The notes below the pieces were generated by a model. That model was not told the origin of the DNA. It was given only the letters and a program-made list of their open reading frames with translations, and did no database searches. From Gammaproteobacteria bacterium (GTDB taxonomy: Bacteria > Pseudomonadota > Gammaproteobacteria > GCA-001735895): 33,416 nt of DNA. Each line of letters begins with the position of its first letter. Position 1 is the stretch's first letter. Shown here in pieces: positions 26,405 through 32,032 of the stretch. The stretch lies in assembly GCA_024229615.1 (NCBI GenBank), contig JAAESG010000593.1, positions 1-33,416 on the forward strand, in the 5' to 3' direction. A program made the translations under genes and the position numbers.

Positions 26405-29287
26405 TTACGCGTCGTCGTCTTCATCGGCAGGTAACGGCGGACAGGAGCAGATAAGGTGAGTGTCACCGTAAACATTATCTACCCGGCTCACCGGCGACCA
26501 GTATTTATTGGCGCGTAACGAGGCTAACGGGTAAGCGGCTTGTTCCCGGCTATAGGTGTGATGCCATTCATTCGCGCAAACCATATCAACCGTGTGTGGT
26601 GCGCCCTTCAGTGGATTATCCCCAGCATCCATACGGCCTTCCTCGATTTCACGAATTTCGGCGCGAATCGCAATCATCGCTTCACAAAAACGGTCGAGCT
26701 CCTCTTTCGATTCCGACTCGGTGGGTTCGATCATTAAAGTACCGGGGACCGGGAATGACATTGTCGGTGCGTGAAATCCGTAGTCGATCAGGCGCTTGGC
26801 GATGTCATCGACGGTGATACCGCATTCCTTGACCACGCGCGTATCGATGATGCATTCATGCGCCACCAGACCGTTGGGTCCGGTATAGAGAATCGGAAAA
26901 TGATCGTTCAGGCGTTTGGCGATATAGTTCGCGTTTAAAATAGCCGTTGCGGTCGCCTTCGGTAAACCGACACGACCCAGCAGTGCGATATAAGCCCAGC
27001 TGATCGGCAGGATACCGGCGCTGCCAAAGGGTGCAGCTGCAACCTTGTTGATACCATCGTTGTGATTCTGACTGGTAGATGGCAGAAATGGTTTAAGGTG
27101 TTCCTTGACACCAATGGGCCCGACGCCGGGGCCACCGCCGCCATGTGGGATACTGAATGTCTTGTGCAGATTCAGATGGGAAACGTCGCCGCCAAATTTG
27201 CCCGGCGCGCAGACCCCGACCATCGCGTTCATGTTCGCGCCATCGATGTAAACCTGTCCACCGTGATGATGAATCAATTCGCAGACCTCGGTGACATCGT
27301 CTTCAAATACGCCGTGGGTGGACGGATAGGTGATCATGATGGCCGCCAGGTTGTCGCTGTGGGTTTCGCACTTGGCCTTGAGGTCATCCATGTCGATGTT
27401 ACCGGATTTCGCAGTCCCGACCACGACTACTTTCATACCCGCCATCTGTGCCGAGGCGGGATTGGTGCCATGTGCGGAAGCCGGGATTACGCAGATGTTG
27501 CGATGTCCTTCGTCGCGGCTTTGATGATAGGACTTGATCGCTAGCAGGCCCGCGTATTCTCCCTGGGCGCCGGAGTTGGGTTGCAGCGAAACCGCATCGT
27601 AACCGGTGCAGGCGCATAACATTTGTTCTAGCTCGATGATCAATAGCTGGTAACCCTGGGCCTGGTCGAGCGGCACGTAGGGATGGATGCGACCAAATCC
27701 GGGCCAGGTAACCGGGATCAACTGGGTTGCCGAATTCAACTTCATGGTGCACGAGCCCAGCGGAATCATGCTGCGATCGAGTGCGAGGTCCTTGTCGGCA
27801 AGTTTGCGCATGTAGCGCATCAGGTCGGTTTCGGAGTGATGGCTGTTGAACACCGGGTGGGTCAGGAAATTGCTAGTGCGCACCAGTGCAGGTGGCAGGC
27901 TGCTACCGGTCTTTTCTTCGAGCGATGTGACTGTGATCTGGTCACCATGGTCATGAGTAAAAACGTTGAACAGGGTTTTGACGTTTGCCCGGGTCGCAAT
28001 TTCGTCCAGTGAAATACCGATGGTGCTGGCGTTGACCTGGCGCAGGTTGATTTTCTCAGCCCTGGCGGCGGCCATTATGAATTCGGTCGCATTGCCGGTA
28101 TTGACCGTAATCGTGTCGAAGAAATGCTCGCTATTAACTTCGAGACCCAGTTCACGCAATCCCGAGGCCAACAACGCCGTCATACGATTGATTCGCTGGG
28201 CGATTCGCTTGAGTTCGGCAGGCCCGTGGTAGACCGCGTACATACCCGCCATGATCGCGAGCAAGGCTTGCGCTGTGCAGATGTTACTGGTCGCTTTTTC
28301 CCGCCGAATATGCTGTTCACGGGTTTGCAGCGCAAGGCGCAGGGCGGGCTGGTTGCGGGTATCCTGGGAAACACCGATCAGGCGACCCGGCAGTGATCGT
28401 TTAAACGCTTCACGCGTAGCCATGAAGGCGGCGTGCGGCCCGCCATAACCCAGTGGTACACCGAAGCGTTGAGAACTGCCGACCACGATATCGGCATCGA
28501 ATTCACCGGGTGGCGTCAACAGGGTCAGGCTGAGCAAATCGGCCGCAACCGCGACCAGTCCTTTCTTTTCATGAATTTTTGCCACCAGTTCGGAATAGTC
28601 ATAAATTTCACCGGTGGAACAGGGGTATTGTAACAACACACCGCACAACTCTGGATTGTCGGCAGCTGCGAACGCGTCGCCGATGACACATTTGATTCCC
28701 ATGTGTTTGGCGCGATTGGTGATGACTTCTATGGTTTGCGGATGGCAACTGTCGGCGATATAAAAAACATCACTTTTGCTTTTTGACAAGCGATGGCACA
28801 TGGCCATGGCCTCAGCCGCCGCGGTGGCTTCGTCCAGCACCGAGGCGTTGGCGAGTTCCATGCCGGTCAGGTCGCTGATCATAGTCTGAAAATTGAGCAG
28901 GGCTTCGAGTCGACCCTGGGAAATTTCTGGCTGGTAGGGCGTGTAGGCGGTATACCAGGCCGGGTTGCGCAGTAAATTTCGCTCGATAACGGTAGGCGTG
29001 TGAGTATTGTGATAACCCATACCGATAAAGGACTTGAAGAGCTGATTTCGAATCGAGATCTGGTAAAGCCGGTTCAGAACCTGGCGTTCCGACAGGCTTG
29101 CCTTGACTTCAAGCGGTTTACGTCGACGAATCGATTCGGGAACGACCTTGTCGAGCAATTCGTCGATGTCCTCCATGCCGAGCACTTCAAGCATTGCGCT
29201 TTCGTCTTCCTTTCCGGGTCCTATATGACGGCGTATAAATCCATGAAAGATATCGAGATCTGTTAATTTGAGGTCATGATTGGGCAT
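26405..29287 (-). CDS. gcvP: Glycine dehydrogenase (decarboxylating), P protein
   Basis: 960 residues, the fused single-chain form (E. coli 957). The PLP lysine is K709 in [18 protein letters not shown]. Other landmarks are [12 protein letters not shown] and [14 protein letters not shown] near the N-terminus and [11 protein letters not shown] in the second half. It decarboxylates glycine and loads the aminomethyl group on the H protein. gcvT and gcvH are not adjacent, so the system is split on this chromosome. The ATG has a good ribosome site (GAGGAA). A dyad lies in its leader (29301-29340). Confidence 0.97.
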
Positions 29288-29300
29288 GTAATGGTTCCTC

Positions 29301-29340
29301 GGAATTGGGTTTTACGTGATCTCTATATCACGGGAATTCC
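29301..29340. promoter_or_regulatory. Nested dyad in the gcvP leader
   Basis: GGAATT (29301-29306) pairs with AATTCC (29335-29340) outside CGTGAT (29315-29320)/ATCACG (29327-29332), ending 13 bp before the gcvP start. It could be an operator or an mRNA hairpin. It does not resemble the glycine riboswitch. Confidence 0.4.
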
Positions 29341-29400
29341 CTGGTTAGCTTTGCATTTTTATTCTGCTGTGAATATTAACACTAACACTGGCCGCTACTA

Positions 29401-30186
29401 CTAATAATTGCCAATTCTGGTCACCAGCGTATCGCTAAGCCACTGCTTGAGAAATCCAGCGGCAACGAGGGCTACTTGCTGCTCATCAATCCACTCGAGC
29501 AAACCTTCACATATCTCGGCAAAGCTGGCCCCGTTTATAGCCTGTTCGATGGCCCAGGCTTCATGCACTTCGAGTGAACGCCAGTGGGTTTTCAACTGCC
29601 GACGCCATAGTAACCAGCGCTGCGCATATTCCGCACGCTCGCGTTGTGGTAACTCGGCATCGGTATCCAGCGCGTTTTCGATCAATGGTATATTCCAGTG
29701 TAAATCGATCCATGTCAGAGCAGGTTTGAAGGTAAAACACAGTCCTGGCCAGGCGTTGGCTGGAATCGAAGCCATGTCCTCGATCTGGCACGGCTGGTCG
29801 CTGTTCGCGGCGTCGAAGACCGTGGCTTGTGCCCATTCGTAACTGGCCAGTTCCTGTACAAATTCCGCGTCTTCCCCACGTCCCGTTTCTTTCAAATAGC
29901 GGGGCAGATTCTGGCCGAACCAGCGTAACGAGGCATGAGTGGAAGGGTAGTGTTGCAGGTAGTCGAGCACCATGTTTTCGAAGGCTTCACGTCCGAGGTA
30001 CTTTTCCAGTGCCGAGTAATCGACCGCCAGACTGTTGATCAAACGAATCCGATAGGCGTTGTAGTAGGCTCCGAGTCGATGTTCCGCGAGCGCATACTCG
30101 GTGCTGATAATATCCTGCTCGATGGCGTTTGAACCACCGGTCAGGTAGTCCTGGAAACGCAGTTGCAGATCGCGTAAATTCGTCAT
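29401..30186 (-). CDS. bufC: Bufferin/Hvf-type partner protein with DUF2063 domain
   Basis: 261 residues. The N-terminal half (LRDLQLRFQDYLTGG..., YYNAYRIRLINSLAVDYSALEKYLG) is the DUF2063 'putative DNA-binding' domain typical of the protein encoded next to MNIO enzymes. The C-terminal half is a less conserved alpha/beta region (WIDLHWNIPLIENAL...). In bufferin and Haemophilus Hvf systems this partner (BufC/HvfC) works with the MNIO enzyme in peptide modification, probably by recognising the precursor; DNA binding has not been shown to be its role. It follows bufB by 8 bp. Confidence 0.85.
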   Translation of the reverse strand: MTNLRDLQLRFQDYLTGGSNAIEQDIISTEYALAEHRLGAYYNAYRIRLINSLAVDYSALEKYLGREAFENMVLDYLQHYPSTHASLRWFGQNLPRYLKETGRGEDAEFVQELASYEWAQATVFDAANSDQPCQIEDMASIPANAWPGLCFTFKPALTWIDLHWNIPLIENALDTDAELPQRERAEYAQRWLLWRRQLKTHWRSLEVHEAWAIEQAINGASFAEICEGLLEWIDEQQVALVAAGFLKQWLSDTLVTRIGNY

Positions 30187-30194
30187 CGTCAGGA

Positions 30195-31028
30195 TTAATA
30201 GTAGGGGGCGGCAATTCGCCGCGCGTGATCGAGTTCGGCTAACACCTGATCGAGTCCCGGAATATTGCCGTCGCGTTCGATCATGGTCGAAACCGGACCG
30301 AAGCGCTTAGCCGCTTCCTCGTAAAGCGACCAGACCGGATCGATAATATCCTGATCGTGGGTATCGATGATCAGGTTCCCATCGTTGGTATGCCCGGCGA
30401 GGTGATGTTGCCAGACCCGTTCCGTTGGCACCCCTTGCAGATATTCAAGTGGATTATAGTGATGATTATAGCTACTCACGTAAATGTTATTGACGTCGAG
30501 TAGCAGAAAACAATCCGCCCTTTCGGCAATCGCGGCGAGGAATTCCCATTCGGGCATCGCATCCTCGCAGTAGGTGATGTAACTGGAAAGATTTTCGACC
30601 AGCATTTGTTGCCCGATGTAGTCCTGCACTCTCGAAATACGATCGGCGATATGGCAGATAGCTTCCTCGGTATAGGGTAAGGGCAGCAGGTCGTGCATGT
30701 TTTTGTGATCGACCCCGGTCCAGCACAGGTGGTCGGAAAACCAGTGTGGTTCGACCCGCTCGATCAGTGCTTTCAATTGCTTCAGGTATTCGAAATCGAG
30801 CTCATCGGTGCTGCCCAGCGACATCGAAACACCATGCATGACCATGGGGTAGTCCTGCCTGATTTTATCGAGGTAATAGAGTGGCTTACCGCCGTCGATC
30901 ATGTAGTTTTCACTGATGATTTCAAGCCAGTCGATGCTCTTGGGCTTACTTTCGAGGATATCCTGGTAGTGTTCAGCACGCAGACCCAGGCCAAATCCAA
31001 GAAACGGTTTATGCGCGGCTTCTGTCAT
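30195..31028 (-). CDS. bufB: MNIO-family (DUF692) multinuclear iron peptide-modifying enzyme
   Basis: 277 residues, TIM-barrel MNIO family. Likely metal ligands can be read in order: MHGVSMSLGS (His), SDHLCWTG (Asp/His), LVENLSSYI (Glu), LLDVNNIYVSSYNH (Asp/Asn/His), HHLAGHTN (His), IDTHDQ (Asp/His) and MIERDGNIP (Glu). Known members oxidatively rearrange cysteines of small precursor peptides to thiooxazoles or oxazolone-thioamides using two or three irons. The cysteine-rich precursor upstream and the DUF2063 partner downstream support this use. No convincing ribosome site precedes the ATG. Confidence 0.92.
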   Translation of the reverse strand: MTEAAHKPFLGFGLGLRAEHYQDILESKPKSIDWLEIISENYMIDGGKPLYYLDKIRQDYPMVMHGVSMSLGSTDELDFEYLKQLKALIERVEPHWFSDHLCWTGVDHKNMHDLLPLPYTEEAICHIADRISRVQDYIGQQMLVENLSSYITYCEDAMPEWEFLAAIAERADCFLLLDVNNIYVSSYNHHYNPLEYLQGVPTERVWQHHLAGHTNDGNLIIDTHDQDIIDPVWSLYEEAAKRFGPVSTMIERDGNIPGLDQVLAELDHARRIAAPYY

Positions 31029-31073
31029 CGGTGCAATTCAATAGTGGGGCAGATTAGATTGTAACTGTCGGGC

Positions 31074-31104
31074 AAAAAAAATGCACCGGCAGAGTCGGTG
31101 CATT
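31074..31104 (-). terminator. Intrinsic terminator between bufA and bufB
   Basis: On the minus strand AATGCACCG and CGGTGCATT form a perfect 9-bp stem with a 7-base loop, followed directly by a run of seven T (31074-31080). It stands 22 bp after the bufA stop and 46 bp before bufB. Partial read-through would give much more bufA than bufB/C transcript. Confidence 0.85.
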
Positions 31105-31126
31105 CTTTAAAGCTGAGAAATACAGC

Positions 31127-31378
31127 TTAGGCTTCGAATTTTCCGCCCGCGCCTTCACACTCAGACTTGGTCTGCTTAACCCAGCCTTGTCCTGCACATG
31201 AGTTTTGTCCAGCGCAGCTGCTGGTAGCGGTTGCACAGGCACTGGTGCCTTTGCAGGAATTGACGTTGAAGCACTTCCCGGCTTTTTCGCCTGCAGATGC
31301 GCTCATGGGCGCCATGGCGAACATGGCAGCAGCAGCTGCGGCTAGGGCGACTCCAGTTGTTTTCTTATCTGTAATCAT
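31127..31378 (-). CDS. bufA: Bufferin-like cysteine-rich RiPP metallophore precursor
   Basis: 83 residues. A signal peptide (about 1-29, alanine-rich, ending SASA) exports it to the periplasm. The mature ~54 residues hold six cysteines (36, 42, 48, 55, 61, 74) in GKCFNVNSCKG and SCAGQ.SCAGQGW contexts. This resembles the BufA2-type bufferins rather than the EGKCG-repeat DUF2282 type. Known members bind copper or other metals after MNIO modification of cysteines. Ribosome site GAGGAAA is four bases from the ATG. No DoxX-type BufD gene is adjacent. Confidence 0.85.
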   Translation of the reverse strand: MITDKKTTGVALAAAAAAMFAMAPMSASAGEKAGKCFNVNSCKGTSACATATSSCAGQNSCAGQGWVKQTKSECEGAGGKFEA

Positions 31379-31467
31379 GAAACTTTCCTCAAGTTTAAAG
31401 AATATTGTTGTACTGGCTTATTTTCCACTACGCGAGCTTAGAGAGGCTGATTTTCGAGAAAGTTCAG

Positions 31468-31486
31468 AAAAAAATCCAGATTTTTT
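31468..31486 (-). terminator. A/T hairpin with T-run after the protease gene
   Basis: AAAAAATC-TG-GATTTTTT (minus strand) is an 8-bp inverted repeat with a tail of seven T, about 34 bp after the protease stop. The stem is GC-poor. A nearby dyad CTACCA/TGGTAG (31495-31500/31511-31516) could strengthen it or act as an operator for bufA. Confidence 0.4.
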
Positions 31487-31519
31487 ACATTTTTCTACCA
31501 GATCACCGTATGGTAGCAA

Positions 31520-32032
31520 TCATCGATAATGTCGAATCATCAATTCATCGCCGCGTTGTACCAGTTCAAAGTGCTTTAAAACATTCATCCCCAGCAGGAT
31601 CTGATCGACGCCCATGTTTGGAATGAGGCTGGCATTGACATCGAAAAGTTCTATTTCACCGATCGCCAGCTGATCGAGGCGTGTCAGGTAGGCCGTGGTG
31701 AGCCCATTTGCGGTCGAGACTGATGTTGCCGGGCCCCGTTTCAGTCCCAACGCTTGTTGCAGTTCTCCCGGGATCGCGGTGATAGTCGCACCCGTATCAA
31801 CCAGGAAAGTAACCTTGTGATGGTTGATTTCACCACCAAAAATATATTGGCCGTTGCGGTTACGGGTCAGTACCACTTCCTGGAATGCAGGTGTCTGCAG
31901 AGTCGATATCGACTGGTTGGGATTGTTTTGCTGGTCGAGAATTTTGGAAAATGCCAGGGTCAGCAGTAAAATTCCGAGTATCCAACCGGCGACAGTGAAC
32001 ATCATGCCGAGTTTTTTAGTAGAATGAGCCAT
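31520..32032 (-). CDS. Membrane-anchored retropepsin-like aspartic protease
   Basis: 170 residues from the ATG at 32032. The reading frame extends 48 codons further upstream, but that part overlaps aroC and is not protein-like. An N-terminal transmembrane segment (FTVAGWILGILLLTLAF) precedes a periplasmic domain with the clan AA active site FLVDTGATITAIP (Asp79) and the family's C-terminal ILLGMNVLKHF. This matches the TIGR02281-type single-domain retropepsins. Substrates are unknown. There is no Shine-Dalgarno; a candidate promoter lies so close that the mRNA may be leaderless. Confidence 0.85.
   Translation of the reverse strand: MAHSTKKLGMMFTVAGWILGILLLTLAFSKILDQQNNPNQSISTLQTPAFQEVVLTRNRNGQYIFGGEINHHKVTFLVDTGATITAIPGELQQALGLKRGPATSVSTANGLTTAYLTRLDQLAIGEIELFDVNASLIPNMGVDQILLGMNVLKHFELVQRGDELMIRHYR

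Follow-up and report, generated by a model that had tools for sequence, protein, structure and literature searches.

A Buf2-type bufferin cassette in a gammaproteobacterial genome carries, between the gene for its peptide precursor (bufA) and that for its maturase (bufB), a hairpin with the form of an intrinsic terminator, which recurs in every close relative compared. Strong hairpins, alike in structure and not in sequence, are near-universal at this junction among the Buf2 loci collected here, and the feature is therefore more general than was known when this DNA was initially annotated. Taken together, the sequence comparisons show selection on the bufA–bufB junction. Its role is probably partial termination after bufA, which would set a high level of the precursor and a low level of the maturase, a reading that we hold with modest confidence.

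The cassette and its surroundings

The following features, listed in order of position, were located in the window, i.e., the whole stretch of 33,416 nucleotides that was analyzed:

29401–30186, minus strand: bufC, 261 aa, DUF2063 partner protein (PF09836)
30195–31028, minus strand: bufB, 277 aa, MNIO-family bufferin maturase (NF050167, PF05114)
31058–31063, minus strand: TACAAT, resembling a −10 element and lying 29 nt ahead of bufB; perhaps part of an internal bufBC promoter
31080–31104 with T run 31074–31081, minus strand: intrinsic-terminator-like hairpin between bufA and bufB
31110–31128, minus strand: small hairpin AAGCTG/CAGCTT starting in the bufA stop codon (from folding)
31127–31378, minus strand: bufA, 83 aa, Buf2-type bufferin precursor (NF050166 and open reading frame)
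31386–31392, minus strand: TTGAGGA, bufA ribosome-binding site (from anti-SD pairing and leader alignment)
31410–31431, minus strand: predicted 5′ hairpin of the bufA mRNA, GTAGTGG...CCAGTAC (from folding)
31438–31465, minus strand: RpoE/AlgU-type promoter-like motif GAACTT-N17-TCTAA (from leader alignment)

The initial annotation had read the locus as a cysteine-rich peptide gene followed by MNIO and DUF2063 genes, and profile searches bear this out with all three matches above their cut-offs: NF050166 (Cu_RiPP_BufA2) for BufA at 77.3 bits against 60, NF050167 (MNIO_BufB) for BufB, which also matches PF05114, at 380 bits against 310, and PF09836 (DUF2063) for BufC at 62 bits against 27.2. On BufC the HvfC RRE model scores 35.9 bits, its cut-off being 142. 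The genes run along the minus strand in the order bufA, bufB, bufC, with bufC starting 8 nt past the bufB stop. As read from its sequence, BufA has six cysteines and, by eye, an N-terminus with a basic KK and a hydrophobic stretch that ends in SASA. No match to DUF2282 (PF10048) was found in the whole genome and BufA itself has no Pfam match; the cassette is not of the Buf1 type, which is defined by a DUF2282 precursor. By these profile matches the locus is confirmed as a Buf2-type bufferin cassette, a member of a known family, and the BufA product would be a thiooxazole-bearing, copper-binding periplasmic metal buffer. The genome (5.2 Mb) encodes one BufA2 gene and one BufB-type gene, both of them in the cassette.

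Downstream of the cassette lies gcvP, and upstream lie a gene for a clan AA aspartic protease and aroC; the earlier statement that no BufD/DoxX gene or obvious metal regulator is adjacent agrees with this, no gene for DoxX, a sigma factor or a metal regulator being found to adjoin the cassette. Since most close-relative loci on a long enough contig keep the same neighbors, the cassette has been inherited in place. Across loci L139–L164 the precursor is better kept than BufC, with identities to the window of 73–93% for BufA and 53–79% for BufC.

The junction hairpin and its conservation

The perfect 9-bp hairpin with seven T that was first reported stands as to its stem (AATGCACCG/CGGTGCATT, with a 7-nt loop, 31080–31104), but not as to its tail: the minus-strand T run at 31074–31081 has eight T, two of them within the stem and six after it. 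A G+C-containing hairpin with a T run at once behind it, as in an intrinsic terminator, is present at the junction. Without its A-T extension the hairpin folds at −11.6 kcal/mol, and the 98-nt junction as a whole at −23 kcal/mol (z −3.2). A simple terminator scan of the window does not list it, probably because A-T and G-T pairs lengthen the stem into the T run. Just ahead of it, the small hairpin at 31110–31128 is kept in many congeners as AGCTG...CAGCT or GCTG...CGGC.

Several other sources of such a hairpin can be set aside. A repeated or mobile element is rejected by its single occurrence in the 5.2-Mb genome, and a known RNA family by the lack of any Rfam match at E values up to 1 over 29250–31560. 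The similarity of TGCACC...GGTGCA to an NtrC site does not extend to the spacing of the halves, which is 5 in such sites and 9 here. A chance hairpin is rejected by its conservation in relatives together with shuffle controls. For this comparison, which the initial annotation had itself proposed as a check, close relatives were defined as loci with a BufB at least 73% identical, drawn from whole genomes of relatives and a species-wide scan; a terminator was called in 27 of 27 distinct bufA–bufB junctions as against 3 of 108 dinucleotide shuffles.

Every extractable congener junction retains the hairpin and the T run amid surrounding sequence that has drifted. An alignment of 11 members shows a near-invariant lower stem and variable upper pairs and loop, the variation in the upper stem being partly compensating (GAC/GTC, GGC/GCC). 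Termination should need pairing only, yet the lower stem AATGCACCG/CGGTGCATT itself is nearly fixed in the genus, and a second, sequence-specific role of the stem is possible. The reverse strand (31074–31110 in the window) was likewise called a terminator in 17 of the 27 close relatives because the A residues before the stem form a T-rich plus-strand tail; the hairpin may thus act as a two-way terminator.

A distant set was assembled from BufA2 loci of the class and the scan, with near-identical ones removed, although some come from related genomes and are thus partly non-independent. Among those with junctions of at least 40 nt (n = 90), a terminator was called in 47, compared with 20 of 360 shuffles, and nearly all of the remaining junctions, around half of the set, possess a strong hairpin that no good T run follows. 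Buf1 junctions were called terminators in 6 of 13 cases versus 3 of 52 shuffles. When the strongest hairpin in the 75 nt after bufA was taken as the measure (81 distant loci), the median was −24.0 kcal/mol and 79% reached −20, against −10.1 kcal/mol and 7% in the shuffled controls. The corresponding values were −9.9 kcal/mol and 3% before bufA, −9.0 kcal/mol and 5% after bufC, −13.4 kcal/mol and 6% inside bufB, and −13.8 kcal/mol and 21% behind the other genes of these loci; between bufB and bufC the median distance is −4 nt, and there is no terminator. With strong hairpins far less frequent at the other positions compared, the break sits specifically between precursor and enzyme. The distant hairpins have no sequence in common with the one in the window. 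Two or three tandem bufferin precursor genes precede bufB in L046, L054, L091, L101, L102 and L110.

Candidate control of bufA upstream and at translation

Upstream of bufA the promoter-like motif has its −35 element at 31460–31465 and its −10 element at 31438–31442. GAACTT-N16/17-TCTAA precedes bufA in 25 of 26 close relatives, its spacer bases not being conserved, and was found in 2 of 128 loci outside them (L140, an additional close relative, and L093, from the same family but another genus), which rejects the motif as a general Buf2 feature. The AlgU/RpoE consensus is GAACTT-N16/17-TCtgA (PMC10651043); the motif in the window shares with promoters dependent on these factors the GAACTT, the spacing of 16–17 bases and the TCxxA, and differs in having TCTAA as its −10 in place of TCtgA. 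The genome contains an rpoE gene, upstream of which congeners have a conserved GAACTTTT (a GAACTTT element) with a GTCTYTAT-like −10 that is similar but not identical to the bufA motif, and the strict bufA motif was not found there. Only one other match to GAACTTN15-18CTCTAA exists in the genome, so a regulon sharing the motif is not inferable from it, and CTCTAAGNTNGCGTANTGG has no other match. An RpoE/AlgU-type promoter is, on this evidence, a candidate answer to the question of how bufA is regulated, and would place the precursor under RpoE control.

Just past the expected start site a hairpin is predicted in 27 of 28 leaders, of modest energy (mean z −1.4), and in several of them its stem has changed on both sides (TGG/CCA to CGG/CCG). 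TACAAC at 31407–31412 on the minus strand, 28 nt before bufA, and the TACAAT before bufB, which may be one shared element, are both kept in most congeners.

The GAGG of the bufA ribosome-binding site is invariant in 17 aligned leaders, and anti-SD pairing in the window amounts to −6.2 kcal/mol for bufA versus +0.4 for bufB. Before bufA, pairing at or below −4.5 kcal/mol occurs in every close relative and in 96% of the distant ones; before bufB the corresponding shares are 4% and 34%, these bufB figures being approximate, with start codons set by rule. From this contrast a high precursor-to-enzyme ratio is therefore to be expected at translation too, whatever the terminator does. In L008, no ATG, GTG or TTG occurs downstream of the in-frame stop and ahead of the conserved FLGFGLGL of BufB, which would reflect a non-standard start codon or else a misassembly.

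Proposed partial termination, its rivals and known systems

Under partial termination, bufA can be seen as its own transcription unit inside the operon. An RpoE/AlgU-type promoter would yield a short bufA mRNA whose 5′ end folds into a hairpin and whose ribosome-binding site is strong; most transcripts would stop at the hairpin and T run that follow bufA, with the 3′ end probably protected, and a minority would read past the terminator to give a low level of bufB–bufC, with the near-absent ribosome-binding site of bufB cutting its output further. The outcome would be much precursor and little maturase, as would suit an enzyme whose substrate is a stoichiometric metal buffer. Of the interpretation offered earlier, the Buf2 cassette and the terminator-like hairpin are thus borne out, and the idea that partial termination sets the ratio is plausible and fits the anatomy; both the efficiency of termination and read-through as the origin of the bufBC mRNA are inferred. 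A promoter would have little space behind the hairpin in 25 of the 81 distant junctions, where under 20 nt separate the end of the hairpin from the start of bufB, and transcripts there most simply read through; in close relatives the gap is mostly 50–54 nt. The window terminator, with its hairpin and full T run, looks strong, so that read-through could be very low, and as around half of the distant hairpins have no good T run, termination may not be the function that is shared.

Read-through is our first choice for the source of bufBC mRNA and an internal promoter our second; both may contribute. If termination after bufA were instead full, a separate promoter of low and steady activity, with TACAAT at 31058–31063 as its −10, would serve bufBC, and the terminator would insulate stress-induced bufA from the enzyme genes. 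In 19 of 27 close relatives a box of the pattern TA[CT]A[ACT]T, counted as TACAAT, TACACT or TATAAT, does lie 25–33 nt upstream of bufB, where shuffles lead one to expect 0.46, and its distance from bufB is constant even where that from the terminator differs (L149); moreover, the divergent members L161 and L163 have TATAAT with a −35 of 4/6 at 17–18 nt. These two are the only members with a fair −35, however, the match being 2/6 in the window and most relatives, and a promoter scan found nothing between terminator and bufB in the window, the box is missing at that place in 8 of 27 close relatives, and many distant relatives have no room for such a promoter; we regard it as a live alternative that is less likely than read-through. 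That the hairpin mainly shields the bufA mRNA from 3′ decay, with a single long transcript whose bufBC part decays faster, as in puf, would account for strong hairpins at nearly all distant junctions when around half have no good T run, and for the hairpin predicted at the 5′ end of the same mRNA; but protection alone does not need the T run, which is kept in 27 of 27 genus members, and we consider this improbable. More improbable by far is a regulated attenuator, at which a metal or a protein would shift the share of transcripts that pass: the second small hairpin ahead of the terminator, and a stem sequence near-invariant in the genus where only pairing should matter, would suit it, but no competing antiterminator fold was seen, no Rfam family matches, and the distant hairpins do not share the sequence of the window hairpin.

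A broader picture may be tentatively drawn, in which a hairpin retained as structure and not as sequence would fix a high precursor-to-enzyme ratio across the Buf2 class, and in this clade RpoE-type control would be laid upon the precursor and not the maturase, answering periplasmic damage and not a dedicated metal sensor. As far as could be checked, neither the junction hairpin as a Buf2 class feature nor the RpoE-type promoter has been described. Buf2 clusters are widespread, and their regulation and the setting of their peptide-to-enzyme ratio were not found described in the literature examined; the near-universal junction hairpin offers a simple testable rule for their operons. The RpoE-type promoter, if true, would link the metal-buffering peptide of one clade to envelope stress. 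In practical terms, a natural terminator between the first two genes matters when Buf2 clusters are to be expressed.

A parallel might be struck with lantibiotic and other RiPP operons, where a leaky terminator follows the precursor gene and is itself followed by the modification genes, although the peptide and enzyme families are different ones and the hosts mostly Gram-positive; literature searches for a terminator placed in this way within RiPP clusters found nothing useful. The described Buf2 clusters have the same six-cysteine precursor, with an N-terminal signal sequence that is putative in the present cassette, and the same order of MNIO and DUF2063 genes; the present cassette differs from them in having no DoxX gene (Antoine et al. 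2025, PMC12452194). That survey gives sigma-factor genes for Buf1 and not for Buf2 clusters, and contains none of the terms "terminator", "hairpin" or "promoter". Buf1 (DUF2282) or GIG operons, as in Caulobacter, Cupriavidus and Legionella, combine the same enzyme pair with another precursor family, and some of their junctions have terminators too (the 6 of 13 above). The Legionella pneumophila GIG operon, which is of the Buf1 type, gave positive RT-PCR over all three junctions, and copper or gold raised its promoter activity (PMC5413113); such co-transcription fits passage of the junction, by analogy with what is another subfamily. Finally, the puf operon of Rhodobacter has a strong hairpin between its abundant and less abundant parts (Klug et al. 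1987, cited in PMC6238624); there it is segmental mRNA stability that is at work, whereas the genus of the window has instead a T run that favors termination.
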